Assembly (NCBI GenBank): GCA_029261755.1
Contig: JAJDAS010000524.1
Location: 1 to 38,182 of the forward strand
Direction: 5' to 3'
Length of the DNA stretch: 38,182 nucleotides
Source: Nitrospinia bacterium
GTDB taxonomy: Bacteria > Nitrospinota > Nitrospinia > JACRGO01
Of this stretch, positions 1 through 32,764 are shown piece by piece (the stretch's first letter is position 1; every line of letters begins with the position of its first letter). Made by a program: the position numbers and the translations under genes. The notes below the pieces were generated by a model. The model ran no database searches. It saw nothing but the letters and a program-made list of their open reading frames with translations, and had not been told where the DNA came from.

Positions 1-1908
1 AAAGGCGCCAAAATCCATTATCTTGGAAACCTTTCCGTTATAAATCTTGCCCACCTCGGCTTCCTTGACAATATTTTCAACCATTTGGATAGCTTCCTGA
101 GCAGATGCTTCGTCTGGTGAAGCTATGACGACCCTACCGCCATCTTCAATATCGATGGAGGCACCCGTCTTCTCAATAATTCCGCGAATGACCTTTCCTC
201 CTGGTCCAATAATACCACCAACTTTTTCAGGCCTTACCTGGATAGTAAAAATCCTCGGCGCGTAAGTGGAAAGATTTTCCCTGGGGTCCGACAAAGCTTC
301 AGTCATCTTGCCCAGTATATGCATCCTGCCTTCTTTTGCTTGAGCCAAGGCGCTTTGCATCAAATCTTTGTCCACGCCATCGATCTTAATATCCATCTGT
401 AAAGCGGTAATCCCCTTCTCGGTGCCTGCAACCTTGAAGTCCATATCTCCTAAATGGTCTTCGGAACCCAGGATATCCGAAAGAACGGCAAAATTCCCAT
501 CTTCCTTAATCAGACCCATGGCAATTCCCGCCACGGGTGCAGAAATGGGAACCCCAGCATCCATCATGGCAAGGGAAGAACCACATACGGTGGCCATGGA
601 ACTGGAACCGTTAGATTCCATTATCTCGGATACAATCCGGATGGTATAGGGAAATTTTTCCTGATCGGGAATCACACCGGAGACGGCTCGTTCGGCAAGG
701 GCGCCATGGCCAATCTCTCTTCTACCCGGGCTGAGGTTGAACTTGGTTTCCCCTACGCTGAACGGGGGAAAGTTATAATGAAGCATGAACCTCCTGTTTT
801 TTTTGCCTTCCAGGTTGTCCAGCCTTTGTTCATCCGAACCGGTTCCCAAGGTAGCAACAACCAGGGCTTGGGTTTCTCCCCTTGTAAAAAGAGCGGAACC
901 GTGTGTTCTGGGAAGAAGGCCAACCTGGGATGATATGGATCTTACATCTCTTAAACCTCGCCCATCCATCCTCTTACTTTCTCCGCTAATCATCTTACGA
1001 ATAACGCTTTTCTTCAGGTCGCCAAAAGCACTCTTAATATTATTTGTGAGTTCCCCGTCCTCATCAGGATTCAACTGAGCCACGGCTTCCTCGCGAATTT
1101 TTTTGAACTCATCATCCTGCTGATGTTTTCCGGAGATATGGCAGACTGCTAAAATTTTATCCTTAGCGATTTCGGAAACCTTTGCCAAGAGTTCCGTATC
1201 TTTTTCTACAACAGGAATCTCCATATTTGCCTTGGCAAACCCCTCGGCTAACTCCTCCTGCAAGGAAACTACCTGCTTGATAATCCCTTGCGCAAATTCC
1301 AGGGCATCAACCATGACTTCCTCGGAGAGTTCCGCAGCGCCACCTTCCACCATGGTAATCGCATTCTTCGTTCCCGCCACGGTGAGATTGAGGTCGCTCT
1401 TCTCTAATTCTTCGTAAGTGGGATTGGCAACGAACTGTCCATCAACCCTTCCTACTCGAACAGCCCCTATAGGCCCTGCAAAAGGTATGTCGGAAACAGT
1501 TAAAGCTGCCGAAGCGCCAATAAGGGCCAGAATATCAGGATCATTCTGCTGGTCTGCGGAAAGCGTATAACAAATGACTTGAGTTTCCTTATAAAAACCG
1601 TCCGGGAAAAGGGGCCGGAGTGGCCTGTCGATCAACCTGCTTGTCAAAGTTTCCTTTTCACCGGGCCGCCCTTCCCTTTTGAAAAATCCTCCCGGAATTT
1701 TTCCTGCTGCGTACATTTTTTCCCTGTAATCCACCATGAGGGGAAGAAAATCAATATCTGCCCTCGATTGTGGAGAAACCACTGCAGATACAAAAACCAC
1801 GGTCTCTTCATAACTCACCAGAACAGACCCGTTTGCCTGTTTAGCGATTTCACCCGACTCAATGGTAAGGGTCTTTCCACCAATTTCTAATTTTACAACT
1901 TTCCGCAT
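1..1908 (-). CDS. pnp: Polyribonucleotide nucleotidyltransferase (PNPase), C-terminus cut by window edge
   Basis: Reverse-strand frame from ATG at 1908 reads MRKVVKLEIGGKTLTIESGEIAKQANGSVLVSYEETVVFVSAVVS...DFLPLMVDYREKMYAAGKIPGGFFKREGRP...RPLFPDGF and runs to the window start through a KH-like segment (VGGIIGPGGKVIRGIIEKTGA). It is absent from the ORF track because its stop lies outside the window. Confidence 0.96.
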   Translation of the reverse strand, partial: MRKVVKLEIGGKTLTIESGEIAKQANGSVLVSYEETVVFVSAVVSPQSRADIDFLPLMVDYREKMYAAGKIPGGFFKREGRPGEKETLTSRLIDRPLRPLFPDGFYKETQVICYTLSADQQNDPDILALIGASAALTVSDIPFAGPIGAVRVGRVDGQFVANPTYEELEKSDLNLTVAGTKNAITMVEGGAAELSEEVMVDALEFAQGIIKQVVSLQEELAEGFAKANMEIPVVEKDTELLAKVSEIAKDKILAVCHISGKHQQDDEFKKIREEAVAQLNPDEDGELTNNIKSAFGDLKKSVIRKMISGESKRMDGRGLRDVRSISSQVGLLPRTHGSALFTRGETQALVVATLGTGSDEQRLDNLEGKKNRRFMLHYNFPPFSVGETKFNLSPGRREIGHGALAERAVSGVIPDQEKFPYTIRIVSEIMESNGSSSMATVCGSSLAMMDAGVPISAPVAGIAMGLIKEDGNFAVLSDILGSEDHLGDMDFKVAGTEKGITALQMDIKIDGVDKDLMQSALAQAKEGRMHILGKMTEALSDPRENLSTYAPRIFTIQVRPEKVGGIIGPGGKVIRGIIEKTGASIDIEDGGRVVIASPDEASAQEAIQMVENIVKEAEVGKIYNGKVSKIMDFGAF

Positions 1909-4110: not shown

Positions 4111-6057
4111 CTATATCGTTTTTGCAGTTTTTTCGATGGTGAAGGGCTCGATGATATCACCATCTTTAATATCGAAAAAATTTTCAAACCCAATACCACA
4201 CTCATAACCGGAGGCAACTTCTTTTGCATCATCCTTGAATCTTCTAAGCGAGCAAATTTTCCCCTGGTGAACGACCACACTATCCCGAATCAAACGCGCT
4301 TCGGAATTTCGGATAATGGTTCCATCCAGCACATAGCAACCCGCGATTTTCCCTAATTTTGGAATGACAAAAACCTCTCTTACCTCTGCCTTGCCGCTTA
4401 TCTTCTCGGAAAGAGTCGGTTCGAGTAGCCCTTCCATGGCTGCCTTGACATCGCCGATAGCGTTGTAAATCACCGTATAAAGTCTTACATCCACCCTCTC
4501 TCTTTCCGCGATGACCCTGGCATTATCGGTTGGCCTGACATTGAATCCGATGATAATCGCATTAGAGGCGGAGGCAAGGAGAACATCCGATTCCGTGACA
4601 CCGCCAACACCACCGTGGATCACTTTGATCTGGACTTCGCTAGTGCCCATTTTTATCAATGATTCTTTTACGGCCTGCACAGATCCCTGTACATCCGCTT
4701 TGATAACGATGTTGAGGATTTTCACCACTCCATCGGAGATTTGCTTATAAAGGTCATCCAGTGTAATTCTGGTTCCCGCAAGCAAAGAGTCTTCCCTCTG
4801 TTTTTGAGTCCGGGAAGTACTTATTTGCCTGGCCCTTTTCTCATCTTGAACGACTACAAAACCGTCACCTGCTTTTGGGACATCATTCAGACCAATGACT
4901 TCCACAGGAATGGAGGGAATAGCCGATTTGACTTTCTTGCCACAATCGCTAAAAAGCGCTCTAACTCGTCCGTGACTGGAGCCGACGATAAAAATATCAC
5001 CCACTCTCAGTGTTCCCTTCTGTACAAGGATGGTTGCCACCGGCCCTTTTCCCTTATGGAGTTTTGATTCCAACACAACCCCTCGGGCCATGGGCTTTGG
5101 ATTGCCTTTAAGCTCCATGATCTCGGACTGAAGGAGAATCATTTCCAGAAGATTTTCAATCCCTTCATTTTTCAAAGCGGAGACGTTGGCAAAAATAGTG
5201 GAACCTCCCCATTCTTCGGGGATCAGGTTGAAGTCCGCAAGATCCTTTTTGATCTTATCCGGATTGGTGCCTGGTTTGTCTATTTTATTAACCGCTACAA
5301 TCACCGGAACTTTAGCCGCGAGGGCATGATCTATCGCTTCCTCGGTTTGCGGCTTGATGCCGTCATCTGCAGCTACCACCAATACCACGATATCCGTTAT
5401 CTGGGCACCCCTTGCTCTCATAGCCGTGAAGGCTTCGTGTCCCGGGGTATCCAAAAACGTTATTTTTCCGCGGTCAATTTGGACAGAGTAAGCTCCGATA
5501 TGTTGAGTAATGCCTCCTGCCTCTGTATCGGTAACCCTGGTTTTCCGAATCGCATCCAGTAATGTGGTTTTTCCATGGTCAACATGCCCCATAATGGTAA
5601 CCACCGGGGGCCGGAAGGCATAGTCTTCTTCGTTATCCTCTTCATCGGTTTCTATTTCATTGTCGATAGTGATTTCCTTACTCTGAAAGCCGAAATCATC
5701 ACAAATTTTCTTGGCGGTTTCTTGGTCAACTACTTGGTTAATGGTCACCATGATTCCTTGCTTCATCAACCTCTTGATGATCTCCGTACCCACGACACCC
5801 ATACTTTCAGCAAGGTCTTTCAGATTAGTTGCTTCACCTATGGAAATAACAATGTCTTTCTGCCGAATTTGAAGATCATCATCTTCTTCTTTTTTCTTTT
5901 TTTCCTCGACTATGCTTCGGATAAGCTCCGCAGTCTCAGTATCCACAGAACTCATTTTGTTCTTGACCTTCACCCCTTCATCTTTAAGGAGTTTGATCAA
6001 TTCAGGGCTTTGGATATCAAGTTCCGAAGCCAAATAATGTACGCGAATATTACCCAT
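4111..6057 (-). CDS. infB: Translation initiation factor IF-2 (short form, 648 aa)
   Basis: IF2_N-like N-terminus and G domain [24 protein letters not shown]...DTPGHEAF...NKIDKP. Confidence 0.98.
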
Positions 6058-6124: not shown

Positions 6125-7750
6125 CTAAACCTTTTCGTAAAGCTCCAAAAATTTGATCGTTTTCTGCTGCAAGTCTTCCGCCTCGTGTGGAGCCAGTCCT
6201 TCTTCAATCAGTTCACTAGCTTCCGCACCGGACACTTCCGCCACAGTCTGGTACCCGGCAGCTTTCAATCGTGCCATTACCGATTCCGGAATCTCGGGCA
6301 GTTTCTCTAAAGGAAACTCCTCAATATTTTCCACGGTCTCAACATTTTCCTTTTCCCCGGATTTCGTTGAATCCACTTGTTCAGTAGCAGAAGCTTCCGC
6401 CTTCAGGAGAGCATCCTTTTTTTCCTTCGCTATAGCAGCTTCAAGATCTTTTGCACTTTCGGCGAGTTCTTTTTCTCTTTCTATCTCTTCTTTGTGTTTG
6501 ATCTCGGAAAGATCAAAAAGCACAGCCGCTTTCTCCTCTGCAAATCCCACTTCCACCAACCCTTCCTTACCTTTTTCAATCACTTTTTTGAAGCTTTGGA
6601 GGCCATAATTCAACAGATTATTAATATCTTCTTCTTGAATATTTTCCTCTGCCTGAAGGGTGGCCAATAGAAATTCCTTGTTTTTTTGAAGTTTTTCTTC
6701 ACTGAGTTCCAATTCCTGGCGCAATTGGTTTTGCCCCTTGATATCAATTCTCCATTTGATCAAGTTGGAAGCAAGGCGAACGTTTTGCCCCCTTTTTCCA
6801 ATAGCAAGGGATAGCTGATCGTCCGGAACGATAACCGACATGGTTTTTCCCTCGGGACTCAGGTTCACCCTGGCAATTTTTGCAGGACTGAGGGCGTTTG
6901 CTACGAAAACGGAGGGTTCTTCCGACCATTCCACGATATCTATTTTTTCACCCATCAGCTCGTTTACGATGGATTGAACGCGGACTCCTCTCATCCCCAC
7001 ACAAGCTCCAACCGGATCAACATCTTTCTCCTTGGAAAGTACCGCAATCTTGGATCGGCCACTTGGTTCCCTGGCCACTCCTTTGATTTCAATAATTCCC
7101 TCATGAATTTCCGGAACCTCAATTTCAAATAGCCTGGAAATAAGGCCTGGATGTGTTCTTGATAACAAGGCGTATACCCCTTTGGGTCCTCTTTTAATAT
7201 CCAGGACAAAGGCTCTAATCCGGTCGTTTCTTCTAAATTTTTCGGATGGCACCTGTTCTTTCCTTGGGAGGACACCCTCGATTCTGCCGAAATCCATAAT
7301 AATATCTCCACGTTCCTGCCTCAAGACTATGCCGCTTATCACATCGTTGATTTTATCTTTAAAGCTGTTGTAGAGAATTTCCGCCTCGGCCTCCCGAACA
7401 CGCTGCATAATTACCTGTTTGCCATTTAAAGCTGCGATTCTACCAAGGTTTTTTAATTGGCTTGGAATCTTTACTTTCTCCCCTCTTTTGGCATCGGGGT
7501 CCACCTTCTTAGCATCTTTTAAGGAAATCTCCAGTTCCTCGTTGGAAACAGTACGTACCACGTCCTTCATCAAAAAAAGCTCGGCTTCTCCTGTGGCTTC
7601 ATCGAAGGTAACCGACAGTTCCAGCTCAGGGTTGAACCGCTTTCGAGCAGCAGAAAGCACCGCAGCCTCAATGGCCTCAATCATTACTTTACGATCAATC
7701 CCCTTTTCATGGCTGATTGCATCAATGATTTGAACTATTTCAACACTCAT
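6125..7750 (-). CDS. nusA: Transcription termination/antitermination factor NusA
   Basis: N-terminal NusA domain, S1/KH region (VGACVGMRGVRVQSIVNELMGEKIDIVEWSEEP), C-terminal acidic linker and HhH-like tail; directly upstream of infB. Confidence 0.97.
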   Translation of the reverse strand: MSVEIVQIIDAISHEKGIDRKVMIEAIEAAVLSAARKRFNPELELSVTFDEATGEAELFLMKDVVRTVSNEELEISLKDAKKVDPDAKRGEKVKIPSQLKNLGRIAALNGKQVIMQRVREAEAEILYNSFKDKINDVISGIVLRQERGDIIMDFGRIEGVLPRKEQVPSEKFRRNDRIRAFVLDIKRGPKGVYALLSRTHPGLISRLFEIEVPEIHEGIIEIKGVAREPSGRSKIAVLSKEKDVDPVGACVGMRGVRVQSIVNELMGEKIDIVEWSEEPSVFVANALSPAKIARVNLSPEGKTMSVIVPDDQLSLAIGKRGQNVRLASNLIKWRIDIKGQNQLRQELELSEEKLQKNKEFLLATLQAEENIQEEDINNLLNYGLQSFKKVIEKGKEGLVEVGFAEEKAAVLFDLSEIKHKEEIEREKELAESAKDLEAAIAKEKKDALLKAEASATEQVDSTKSGEKENVETVENIEEFPLEKLPEIPESVMARLKAAGYQTVAEVSGAEASELIEEGLAPHEAEDLQQKTIKFLELYEKV

Positions 7751-7830: not shown

Positions 7831-7863
7831 AAAAAAAAAGTGGGCTCAAAAAAAAGCCCACTT
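7831..7863 (-). terminator. Intrinsic terminator (minus strand) upstream of nusA
   Basis: Minus strand reads AAGTGGGCT-tttttttg-AGCCCACTT followed by an uninterrupted T tract. Stem arms are at 7838-7846 and 7855-7863. Confidence 0.85.
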
Positions 7864-8028
7864 CTGCCTTGCTCGATCAAGTCATAACAAGCTAACACAA
7901 AAAACTTTTAAACGCAAGATCTTAGCCATCCCTTTAGCTCTGGCGTATGAACCTATTTCCAGCACAAAAAATGCTTCTTGCCAGCTACCATGGACTACAG
8001 TACAATCAGAGCTAAGCGATTTAGGGAA
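7863..8028 (-). ncRNA. Candidate structured RNA (nusA-operon leader/attenuator or stand-alone sRNA)
   Basis: Minus-strand promoter-like TTAACT-17 nt-TATAAA (8057-8062 / 8034-8039), long hairpin (TTAGCTCTG/CAGAGCTAA at 8007-8015 and 7934-7942, plus TCCCT/AGGGA outside it), then the intrinsic terminator. No credible ORF on this strand. Confidence 0.5.
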
Positions 8029-8351
8029 GGATCTTTATAAGTTTTAGACATTGAAAAGTTAACCTAAAAGATTTAAGAACGTAAGAATTTAACGCTGAGG
8101 CGCAGAGAACGCAGAGAAATACAAAACCACACAGAATTTCTTTTCTTTTTTTCTGTGCCATTCAATGTTATAAAAGCCAGTATTGTGAGCGTCTTAAATG
8201 AATAAAGCTCGGAAATACCTTAGGTTTTTCAATGAAAATATCTCATGGTTTTAAAGCCGAATCTCCTTGCCCACGATAGAACCTTTAACCGGCTAACCTG
8301 AGTAATTACGATTTTTTCAACTTGTCACTCGTTACTCCTTCAGGAAAGAAT

Positions 8352-9968
8352 GTGCTAAAAAAATTAGCCATTATCACTGCAAGCCTCTTTACCCTGGCAT
8401 TACTTTTCGCGGGAGGGATCTTTTTCTATAGCTCCACTCCCTCCTTTTGCCGCAGCTGCCATATCATGGAACCTTTCTACCAATCGTGGACCACCTCCAA
8501 GCATAATGATATCGCTTGCGTCAAATGCCATTTCGAGCCGGGCCTGGCGGGCAGCCTGAAGGGAAAATGGCAGGCAAGCGCCCTCCTGGTTCAATATCTA
8601 ACCAACACTTACAGTCCGAAACCCTTTGCCAACATCAAAGACGCCAGTTGTTTGCAGGAAGGCTGCCATGTGAAGGCCGAACTTGGGGAAACAAAACCCT
8701 TCAAGGGAAAGGCCGCCTTCAACCATCAACCGCATTTTCAACCCGGACTTCAGAGCGATCTCACCTGCACCTCCTGCCACTCCCCTTTGAAAGGAGAAAA
8801 ACATATCTCCGTGAATGAGACCCATTGCTACCTCTGCCACCTAAAAGGGGTGGATTGGGAATCCCAAGAAGAGAGAATACCAGATGCCGACTGTCGCCTC
8901 TGCCATAAGACCTTCCCAAAAGTGATCTCACTGGGCTCCAAAAATATTGAACACGAAAAATACATTGAAGGGAACATTAGTTGCCACGAATGCCATAGCC
9001 ACGTAGTAAAGGGAGGGGGAAAGGTGGAAGAAAGCACCTGTTTCAAATGCCATGACTTTCAGGAACGATTGCAGATAAAAGAAGATAAGGAAAAGTTGCA
9101 CAAAATTCACGTGGTGGCACATGTGGAGTGTTTTTTATGCCATGACGACATCAGCCACCAGATAGACCACAAGGCCAAGATGGAAGGATCGGACTGCCGC
9201 TCCTGCCATCTCGCGAAGCATTCTGGCGTCAAGATGCTCTATAGCGGAAGAGGTGGACAAGGAGTGCCGGACAAACCGGGTCCCATGTTCCAGGCCGGGG
9301 TGGACTGCATCGGCTGCCACAACGATCCTTCTCCCGTAGTCAGTCCGGACTTCAAGGGGAGGACTCTCACCACCGTTAAGCAACGTTGCGTGGAATGCCA
9401 TAACGATGAGCGTTATGGGGATATTTTGGACAAATGGAAGGGTTTCATCAAAACCAGACTCCAGGCCGTTGGCGAAAAGATGGAAAAAGGAGAAAAGAAA
9501 GTGGGACCTAAGCCGGAAGATCCGAAAATGAACAAACTATATCAGGAAGCCAGATACAACTATTTCTTCGTGAAGCAGAGTCCGGGGGTCCACAACGTGG
9601 GTTATTCCAAGAGTCTCCTGGAGGCTGCGGAGAACAAGCTGGATTCCATCCTGGGCGAGGAACCCATAGAAGAGACCGAGGAAACGGAAGAGGAAGAGAT
9701 TTTCTGGTTCGAAGATACGGAAGGGTTAGCTCCCGTGCGATTCAGTCACGAATTTCACCAATCCATGTTCCCGGAATGCGGGGAGTGCCATGACAACCTC
9801 TTTTCCATGGAGAAAGGAAGCTCCGATTCTTTAGGTCTACTCACCATGAGCAACATGAAACGCGGGAAATATTGCGGCCATTGCCATAACGGGGAAGAGG
9901 CCACGAATATAACAGAGAGTTGTGACATGTGCCATGTGGACAAAAAGACTAATGGAGTGGTGGAATAA
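8352..9968 (+). CDS. Multiheme c-type cytochrome, NapC/NirT-like N-terminus with c7-type C-terminal module
   Basis: One N-terminal TM segment followed by CRSCH and 13 more CXXCH motifs plus one CX4CH (CLQEGCH). The track ORF starts at TTG 8322; GTG 8352 has a Shine-Dalgarno-like AGGAAAG just before it. Confidence 0.9.
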   Translation: MLKKLAIITASLFTLALLFAGGIFFYSSTPSFCRSCHIMEPFYQSWTTSKHNDIACVKCHFEPGLAGSLKGKWQASALLVQYLTNTYSPKPFANIKDASCLQEGCHVKAELGETKPFKGKAAFNHQPHFQPGLQSDLTCTSCHSPLKGEKHISVNETHCYLCHLKGVDWESQEERIPDADCRLCHKTFPKVISLGSKNIEHEKYIEGNISCHECHSHVVKGGGKVEESTCFKCHDFQERLQIKEDKEKLHKIHVVAHVECFLCHDDISHQIDHKAKMEGSDCRSCHLAKHSGVKMLYSGRGGQGVPDKPGPMFQAGVDCIGCHNDPSPVVSPDFKGRTLTTVKQRCVECHNDERYGDILDKWKGFIKTRLQAVGEKMEKGEKKVGPKPEDPKMNKLYQEARYNYFFVKQSPGVHNVGYSKSLLEAAENKLDSILGEEPIEETEETEEEEIFWFEDTEGLAPVRFSHEFHQSMFPECGECHDNLFSMEKGSSDSLGLLTMSNMKRGKYCGHCHNGEEATNITESCDMCHVDKKTNGVVE

Positions 9969-10545: not shown

Positions 10546-10695
10546 TTTCTTTTTTTTAAAATAAAGTCATTGCCACAGAATGTAAAGAACGGAGAACATG
10601 AAGCATAGTTAAAATTTTATCCATTTTCCATAAACCATTTTCCAAGCTCCCTCTCCTACTCTATTTTGTACTATCCCATTGGCGCTGAGCAAACC

Positions 10696-11442
10696 ATGCC
10701 TTTCCATAAAGCTTTCTTAATCCCCATTCTCATAATCTTTTCTCTCCTCTCCTTTTCCCCCCAGCTATTGGCGGAGGAAGAAAAAAATATTTTCCCATGC
10801 AAGGACAAAGAGAAAATCCTGGGCAAAAAAACTCTCCATGAACAATTTAGACAAGGAAAAACTGTTTCCGGTTGCCGCGTTAATGGTGATGATATTCTTG
10901 AAATCATCAGGATTGAAGCACAATGGGAAGAAAAGCTTTCTAACATTTCAATCGAAAATTCGATCATTGAAAGAGGGTTGGACTTTAGTATCTTGCCGAA
11001 AATAAAGTTAACTACGGTAAACCTTCCCGAAAACTGGGAAGAAGAAAAAAAGAAGGAATTCCTGAAGAAGAATTCGACAAAATCCTTTCGGATAGTAAAA
11101 AATAAAATCAAAATCAAAAATTCTGAAATTAAGTCGAAAATAAACAAAAACGGGAGAGAGGGTGACTATTATTCCACTTTTGCAGAATCAACTTTATTTG
11201 AAAAAGATGTCTTTTTCGATGAAAAAACAATTTTCCGAGGAGATGCTTTCTTCAAATACGCCATATTTACTGGAGAAGCTTCTTTCTATTCTGCTACATT
11301 CCATGAAGTTGTTTCCTGCTATTCCACAACATTCCATGGGGAGGCTCACTTCTCTTCAGCCACATTCCATAAAGATGCTTATTTCTCTTCCGCAACATTT
11401 AGTGCAAAAGCTTCCTTCTCTTTGGCTACATTCAATGGATAG
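10696..11442 (+). CDS. Pentapeptide-repeat protein, N-terminal part (signal peptide and first repeats), ended by in-frame TAG
   Basis: ATG 10696 starts MPFHKAFLIPILIIFSLLSFSPQLLAEEE (signal-like). Repeats of the type SATFHGEAHFSSATFHKDAYF continue in the same frame beyond the TAG at 11440-11442. The track ORF begins at upstream TTG 10666. Confidence 0.75.
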   Translation: MPFHKAFLIPILIIFSLLSFSPQLLAEEEKNIFPCKDKEKILGKKTLHEQFRQGKTVSGCRVNGDDILEIIRIEAQWEEKLSNISIENSIIERGLDFSILPKIKLTTVNLPENWEEEKKKEFLKKNSTKSFRIVKNKIKIKNSEIKSKINKNGREGDYYSTFAESTLFEKDVFFDEKTIFRGDAFFKYAIFTGEASFYSATFHEVVSCYSTTFHGEAHFSSATFHKDAYFSSATFSAKASFSLATFNG

Positions 11443-11850
11443 GCTTCCTTCTCTTCCGCAACATTCAGTGAAATGGCTAACTTCTCTGACGCAACATTCA
11501 GTGGAGGAGTTTCTTTCTCTTCCGCAACATTCAGTGGAGAAGCTAACTTCATGGGAGAAGCTGTTTCCTTCTCTTCCGCAAAATTTAGTGGAGGAACTTC
11601 CTTAATGGGAGAAGCTATTAACTTCTCTTCCGCAGCATTCAGAGGAGGAGCTAACTTCTCTGACACAACATTCAGTGGAGAGGCTGACTTCTCTGGCGCA
11701 GCATTCAGTGGAGAGCCTTTCTTCAAATCCGCCAAATTCAGTGTAGGTGTTTACTTCAAATCCGTAACTTTCAGCGGTGGTGCTAACTTCTCTTCCACAA
11801 CGTTCAGTGGAGAAGCTAACTTCTTTGACACCACATTTAACAATTTAGCC
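11230..11850 (+). repeat. Coding tandem repeat with ~30-nt (10 aa) period
   Basis: Near-identical DNA units like ttctcttccgcaacattcagtggagaagctaac encode [F][S][SD][A][T][F][S][G][E][A]. Confidence 0.85.
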
Positions 11851-13059
11851 TATTTTAAAGATTCAATTTTTCTTAATTCATTAAACCTCGTAAAGGCCGG
11901 TTTTCATGGATACGCCGACTTTCGTGGTTCGAAAATCAGAAAGTTGGACTTTAACAACAATAAAAGCCCCAGGGTTTTTCCCAGCCGTCTCGATTTCCGG
12001 GGTGCTGTGATTACCGAAGCCCATTTTCAGGATCTGGTCTTTGAGAAGGATGTGGATTTTTCCGATGTAGCTATTGGACAGCTTGTGAAAGAATCTCCAT
12101 CGAAAGCAGAAGAGGCTTCAAAAAAGGAACCGCAGGGGAAAGTGGATAAGGGGGAGGAAACAACTACCTCATTTTCCACTGTCTTCCGTTTCGTAACCTT
12201 CGAATCGGACGCCTTTTTTCTCAGAACAAAGTTCCTAGGTCCCATGGCCTTTGAAAAGGTGAACTTCAAGAAGGAGGCGAATTTCAGGGAAGCTGCCTTC
12301 AAAAAGGCTAAAAAGTTTTCTCTTTCTTACCTGAATTTCAAGGATCTGTGGATTCGCTGGGCTCAATTCCCTCCCATTGAATCCTGGATCAAAAAGGACG
12401 AAAACATGATTAAAAGTTTCAGTGACAAGGAAATTGAAGAAACCGAAACAAGGAAAGAAGAAGGCATAGAAAACCTTTCTAAGGTTTTCAAAAGACTGGA
12501 GGAAAACTTCCGAGCCCGAAACCTTTTGAGTGACGCCAATTCCGCCTATTACCATCGAGAAAATGCAGAACTGGAAGAAAAGAAAACGGAAAAAATCCCA
12601 TGGTGGAAGAAGCTCTTTCGAATGCTTTGGCAAGCATGGGGAATCATTTCCGGCTACGGGACGAAAATCGAGAGGATTGCAGTATGTGCCTTGGTTTTAA
12701 ACCTGCTCTTTACCCTCCTCTACTGGATCGGGGCCAACCTTGAAAGGCACGCTCCCCCCAAACCCGAAAGGGATTTCACCTTCAAACTTAGGTTCCGGGA
12801 TTTCACCAGGGATTACCTCGCCGATCCTGGGGAATCGACTCCCTGGAAACTCACGACTGCCCTCAGATTTAGCTCCGTCATACTCTTCAAAATCGGCCCC
12901 AGGGACACCACCATCTCCGGGAAGATGTTTTGGATTCTGAATGCCAAAATCTTTGTCTGGCTTGAATGGTGGCTGGGGGTCTTGCTCATGGCCGCCCTGG
13001 CTTATACCCTGGCGAATACGGTTCCGGTTATCCACTGGCTTATTAGCGGTATTCTTTGA
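11473..13059 (+). CDS. Pentapeptide-repeat protein, C-terminal part with two predicted TM segments (same frame as 10696-11442)
   Basis: ANFSDATFSGGVSFSSATFSGEANF... repeats, charged linker, then hydrophobic IAVCALVLNLLFTLLYWIGANL and WLGVLLMAALAYTLANTVPVIHWLISGIL. Confidence 0.75.
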   Translation: MANFSDATFSGGVSFSSATFSGEANFMGEAVSFSSAKFSGGTSLMGEAINFSSAAFRGGANFSDTTFSGEADFSGAAFSGEPFFKSAKFSVGVYFKSVTFSGGANFSSTTFSGEANFFDTTFNNLAYFKDSIFLNSLNLVKAGFHGYADFRGSKIRKLDFNNNKSPRVFPSRLDFRGAVITEAHFQDLVFEKDVDFSDVAIGQLVKESPSKAEEASKKEPQGKVDKGEETTTSFSTVFRFVTFESDAFFLRTKFLGPMAFEKVNFKKEANFREAAFKKAKKFSLSYLNFKDLWIRWAQFPPIESWIKKDENMIKSFSDKEIEETETRKEEGIENLSKVFKRLEENFRARNLLSDANSAYYHRENAELEEKKTEKIPWWKKLFRMLWQAWGIISGYGTKIERIAVCALVLNLLFTLLYWIGANLERHAPPKPERDFTFKLRFRDFTRDYLADPGESTPWKLTTALRFSSVILFKIGPRDTTISGKMFWILNAKIFVWLEWWLGVLLMAALAYTLANTVPVIHWLISGIL

Positions 13060-32688: not shown

Positions 32689-32764
32689 TGGTAGCCCCAA
32701 GGGGTTTCGAACCCCTGTCTCCGGCGTGAGAGGCCGGTGTCCTAGGCCCCTAGACGATGGGGCC
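32689..32764 (-). tRNA. tRNA-Glu (anticodon CTC), CCA encoded
   Basis: Minus strand GGCCCCATCGTCTAGGGGCCTAGGACACCGGCCTCTCACGCCGGAGACAGGGGTTCGAAACCCCTTGGGGCTACCA folds as a cloverleaf with anticodon loop CTCTCAC. Confidence 0.95.

Follow-up and report, generated by a model that had tools for sequence, protein, structure and literature searches.

The rimP-leader was the most widespread attenuator in the survey of Naville & Gautheret 2010 (PMC2965389), where it was described as a terminator specific to rimP-nusA-infB operons whose conserved GGGc(...)gCCC stem is unusual. The element lies 4-130 nt before the gene and has no larger conserved element, and NusA was proposed as its likeliest effector, with RimP as the alternative (PMC2965389). 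In B. subtilis, autoregulation by NusA through termination in the leader has been reported (PMC12288461).

The window analyzed here is a stretch of 38,182 nucleotides from a Nitrospinia bacterium (contig JAJDAS010000524.1), in which an intrinsic terminator, conserved across the phylum and linked to nusA, stands ahead of that gene. Judged by its sequence, this terminator is a member of the rimP-leader family in an operon that lacks rimP, and the site is very likely a transcription attenuator of the nusA operon through which NusA would be expected to regulate its own synthesis negatively. An observation made on raw sequence is thereby assigned to an attenuator family that is already known and occurs very widely. 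The features of the locus are as follows.

4111-6057, minus strand: infB, 648 aa, the next gene of the operon
6125-7750, minus strand: nusA, 541 aa, the first gene past the leader
7831-7865, minus strand: intrinsic terminator of the nusA leader, AGAAGTGGGCTTTTTTTTGAGCCCACTTTTTTTTT, identified by sequence, pattern search and phylum comparison; stem AGAAGTGGGC(TT)...(GA)GCCCACTT, T9 tract at 7839-7831
7831-7883, minus strand: short leader RNA, predicted length about 50 nt, spanning the putative start site through the last T of the tract
7889-7917, minus strand: putative promoter, TTGCGT (7917-7912), 17 nt, TAGCTT (7894-7889), assigned by position and homology
7910-8036, minus strand: long hairpin proposed earlier; inverted repeats present, judged not to be a functional RNA from folding and comparison with the sister genome

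The order on the minus strand is nusA, with its ATG at 7750, followed by infB, and rimP is absent from the operon. The terminator ends 80 nt upstream of the nusA ATG, within the 4-130 nt that separate the rimP-leader from the first gene of its operon. Its GTGGGC...GCCCAC (7861-7840) contains the GGGC/GCCC core of the family and is followed directly by nine T residues (7839-7831), corresponding to the family's U tract. The sequence is far beyond chance and occurs as a single copy in the 5.6 Mb genome, before nusA; the terminator is real and looks functional. A preliminary description of this DNA had placed a terminator about 80 nt before the nusA ATG, and it was found there, at 7865-7831 on the minus strand. 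The attenuator suggested in the same description, to be read through for expression of nusA-infB, is well supported by the conservation of the stem and its linkage to nusA, and the analogy drawn with autoregulation of the E. coli nusA-infB operon was apt, although the exact family, the rimP-leader, had not been named.

In order to follow the stem through the phylum, 77 genomes were searched with the strict pattern AGTGGGC-N3-12-GCCCACTTTT and with a longer version of it. The strict pattern was present at one site each in three genomes, before nusA in the window genome (G000) and its sister (G001) and before rimP-nusA in G002, while the reversed control yielded none; this single-copy occurrence in all three corresponds to the operon specificity of the rimP-leader. 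Stems in the other genomes were mostly GCGGGC/GCCCGC, GCGGGT/ACCCGC or GUGGGU/ACCCAC. A hairpin with a T tract preceded rimP-nusA (nusA in G000 and G001) in 52 of the 52 leaders having enough sequence to score, and most of these hairpins scored above the best of 20 shuffles. The GYGGG core was kept in 50 of the 52 leaders and GGG/CCC was nearly invariant, with compensatory changes in the flanking pairs (C-G in 39, U-A in 9 and U-G in 2; for the second pair, C-G in 35 and U-A in 9), as in the compensatory stem conservation of the rimP-leader.

Across the phylum, nearly every leader has a TTGnnn-16..18-TAnnnT promoter whose end is separated from the stem by 25-34 nt (median 28). The matching position in the window, 27 nt before the GTGGG stem, is occupied by TTGCGT-17-TAGCTT, in which TAGCTT (7894-7889) is preceded by TGT, an extended -10 (TGn extension). 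The site falls in a block aligned with the sister genome, TTGCGYTTAAARG.TTTTTRTGT, and the promoter of G004 opens with an identical TTGCGTTTAA, TTGCGT being present in both G004 and the window. It is a weak consensus match, and several background sites scored equal or higher with a matrix derived from the leaders of the phylum; the matrix did not single it out, and its assignment as the putative leader promoter therefore depends on position and alignment. The promoter proposed in the preliminary description, TTAACT-17-TATAAA, is present as sequence at 8062-8034, but as a promoter it was outscored by several background sites, with a matrix score of 1.44 versus 2.96 for the position-conserved site.

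An independent sRNA of about 200 nt, running from TTAACT/TATAAA to the terminator with a long hairpin as its body, had also been suggested. The inverted repeats are present (arms TTAGCTCTG at 8015-8007 and CAGAGCTAA at 7942-7934), a promoter-like pair lies ahead of them and the stretch closes with a terminator, but the properties of the hairpin make such a transcript highly improbable. The hairpin alone (8036-7910) folded at -33.5 kcal/mol versus -31.25 +/- 3.53 kcal/mol for dinucleotide shuffles (z -0.64), 46 of 200 shuffles folded as well, and the same 500 bp contain, besides the terminator, another unrelated 9-bp perfect inverted repeat. The fold of the whole stretch gave z = -1.98, which owes most to the terminator, since the upper hairpin alone stays at shuffle level and is unconserved. 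At the hairpin's place in the sister genome, the only close relative, a 136-aa ORF ends and the remaining sequence is unrelated, with no counterpart of the hairpin. When the whole 212-nt stretch was searched against 59 relatives at the nucleotide level, the only hits were the terminator in the sister genome and, in G040, a terminator-like piece at another place, with no similarity beyond the terminator. Furthermore, the 3' arm of the hairpin runs into the -35 of the position-conserved promoter, and the hairpin thus lies upstream of the promoter. The preliminary description had recognized no riboswitch, T-box, SRP or tmRNA signature. An Rfam scan at the gathering score gave no family at the site, its only match in the window being a tRNA at 32692-32764; at permissive thresholds the site gave only weak, chance-level matches (riboswitch, T-box, 6S, SRP and others).

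The long hairpin was dropped as a functional RNA on its z of -0.64, its lack of conservation and its place upstream of the shared promoter position. It is probably a product of chance, or at least lies outside the leader unit. The earlier reading of the stretch as a structured RNA is probably wrong given the shuffle-level stability, the missing counterpart in the sister genome and the position ahead of the conserved promoter. Stem covariation, which had been named as a check on that reading, is found as compensatory change in the terminator stem of the phylum, but not for the long hairpin, which is without counterpart in the sister genome.

The product of the gene divergent from nusA (8322-9968, plus strand) contains numerous CxxCH haem-binding motifs (multihaem cytochrome). 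Further along the plus strand, at 10666-13059, two adjacent ORFs carry pentapeptide-like repeats (FSSATFSGEA...) and are perhaps a single gene broken by a frameshift. The interval between nusA and the divergent gene also contains one copy of the dispersed repeat TCTCTGCGTTCTCTGCGCCTCtGCG (8093-8117, minus strand). The repeat has 36 copies with up to 3 mismatches in the window genome (reversed control 0), none in the sister genome and few in the remaining relatives; some copies form close inverted pairs (e.g. C123:2474-2561 and C429:1043-1135), resembling a palindromic mobile repeat.

The terminator could be a plain insulator, with nusA driven from a promoter between terminator and ATG. The 80 nt gap does hold a weak promoter-like TTTCAA-18-TATAGG (7820-7791), and in the sister genome about 120 nt separate the terminator from the end of a same-strand upstream gene. 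In the window, however, the neighbouring gene upstream has a divergent orientation and starts at about 8322, more than 450 nt from the terminator, which therefore has no obvious upstream gene to serve. The gap from T tract to ATG is about 40 nt in the sister genome and 21-60 nt in most of the Chloroflexi loci described below, too short for a promoter, and an insulator would not need an operon-specific stem sequence. Simple insulation is accordingly unlikely. In the attenuator reading, transcription would start about 20-30 nt before the GTGGGC stem, yielding a leader RNA some 50 nt long, and most polymerases would halt at the GTGGGC...GCCCAC terminator, with those that read through going on to transcribe nusA-infB and later genes. 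By binding the elongating polymerase as well as the conserved hairpin, NusA would raise termination, such that excess NusA would lower expression of its own operon. In this scheme we infer where transcription starts, that it terminates in vivo and that NusA is the effector.

The distribution of rimP bears on the factor that is sensed. In the window genus rimP is located on other contigs (C221 in G000, locus L060; C111 in G001, locus L056), with no terminator upstream of the relocated gene in either genome, and nusA keeps the terminator. The gene neighbourhoods of the relocated rimP differ between the two genomes. RimP, which acts in 30S maturation, is otherwise a widespread protein. Its N-terminal domain (PF02576) was detected in 10 of 14 control genomes and in 0 of 60 genomes of one Chloroflexi class (the class of G078), where RimP is possibly lost or strongly diverged, and where a divergent RimP may escape the PF02576 model; in loci of this class no gene of RimP size fits between leader and nusA. 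Directly before nusA, 28 of 30 loci of the rimP-negative class carry a G[TC]GG...CC[AG]C hairpin with a T tract, and many of these leaders have a TATACT-like box about 35 nt ahead of the hairpin. In three other genomes, where rimP precedes nusA (L040, L044 and L045), the terminator lies about 500 nt before nusA, i.e. before rimP. On this comparative evidence, the relocation in G000 and G001 and the Chloroflexi class without detected rimP, the leader tracks nusA or the head of the operon and does not go with rimP. A NusA tree had an outgroup branch too long to be usable for ordering these events.

Sensing of RimP or of the state of ribosome maturation, instead of NusA, would suit the name of the element, and feedback by RimP was considered by its discoverers (PMC2965389), but a leader that remains at nusA after rimP has relocated, and that is present where rimP went undetected in all 60 genomes, makes this reading extremely improbable. 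The tracking of nusA is in agreement with NusA as the sensed factor, and another operon product (e.g. IF2) would fit as well. The relocation thus serves as a natural experiment, and it speaks for NusA, or for something else encoded in the remaining operon, rather than for RimP as the sensed factor. What is slightly new is that nusA retains the leader where rimP has moved or goes undetected, a modest evolutionary point for which 'nusA-leader' is suggested as a better name than 'rimP-leader'.

Upstream of the terminator, 40 of the 50 rimP-linked leaders of the phylum (L089-L110, L052-L081) contain a box, CCUGC, UCUGC, CUCGU or UCUAC, located 8-15 nt before the stem and complementary to its 5' arm. 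Mean complementarity between box and arm in the rimP-linked leaders was 3.83 versus 2.17 +/- 0.14 for shuffled sequence, with UCUAC paired with GUGGG leaders and YCUGC mostly with GCGGG. The box was absent in both genomes of the window genus (G000 and G001), and the Chloroflexi leaders had no clear excess complementarity (2.52 versus 2.26 +/- 0.18). An arm-complementary box was not seen in the original rimP-leader description (PMC2965389). It could represent a candidate antiterminator or pause hairpin, but with few independent changes it is only a lead. A broader proposal, speculative and rather doubtful at present, would recast the rimP-leader as a sensor of NusA that accompanies nusA when the operon breaks up and where rimP is absent, with a phylum antiterminator (YCUGC/UCUAC with the GCGGG/GUGGG arm) missing exactly where rimP left the operon. 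If true, its absence precisely in the rimP-unlinked genus would point to a second, rimP-linked input.

Among described systems, Rfam RF01770 'rimP' (102 positions) has the same gene context, and no match above its gathering cut-off (47 bits), only chance-level hits, was obtained in the window genome and 19 relatives. Of 14 control genomes, one passed the cut-off, so the model is narrow; it seems to have been built on the longer gammaproteobacterial form. Several Gammaproteobacteria have a tandem terminator with an antiterminator in the nusA-operon leader. The leader of E. coli metY-rimP-nusA-infB includes a tRNA gene and is longer than the leader described here. Autoregulation of the nusA operon, predicted at this locus, is known in E. 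coli (Plumbridge 1985 and Nakamura 1985, as cited in PMC2965389). The leader of B. subtilis ylxS(rimP)-nusA likewise has a terminator in the 5' leader of the NusA-encoding operon, and there NusA-stimulated termination was demonstrated experimentally (PMC12288461), whereas here it is predicted; the B. subtilis leader measures about 180 nt (PMC2965389) versus the roughly 50 nt predicted here. The closest resemblance is to the rimP-leader (PMC2965389), with which the locus shares a GGGc...gCCC stem and U tract, 80 nt before the first gene of a nusA-infB operon, and an operon-specific motif with no larger conserved RNA. Unlike the rimP-leader (PMC2965389), the first gene here is nusA, with rimP on another contig, and the phylum, except for the window genus, has a YCUGC/UCUAC box before the terminator.
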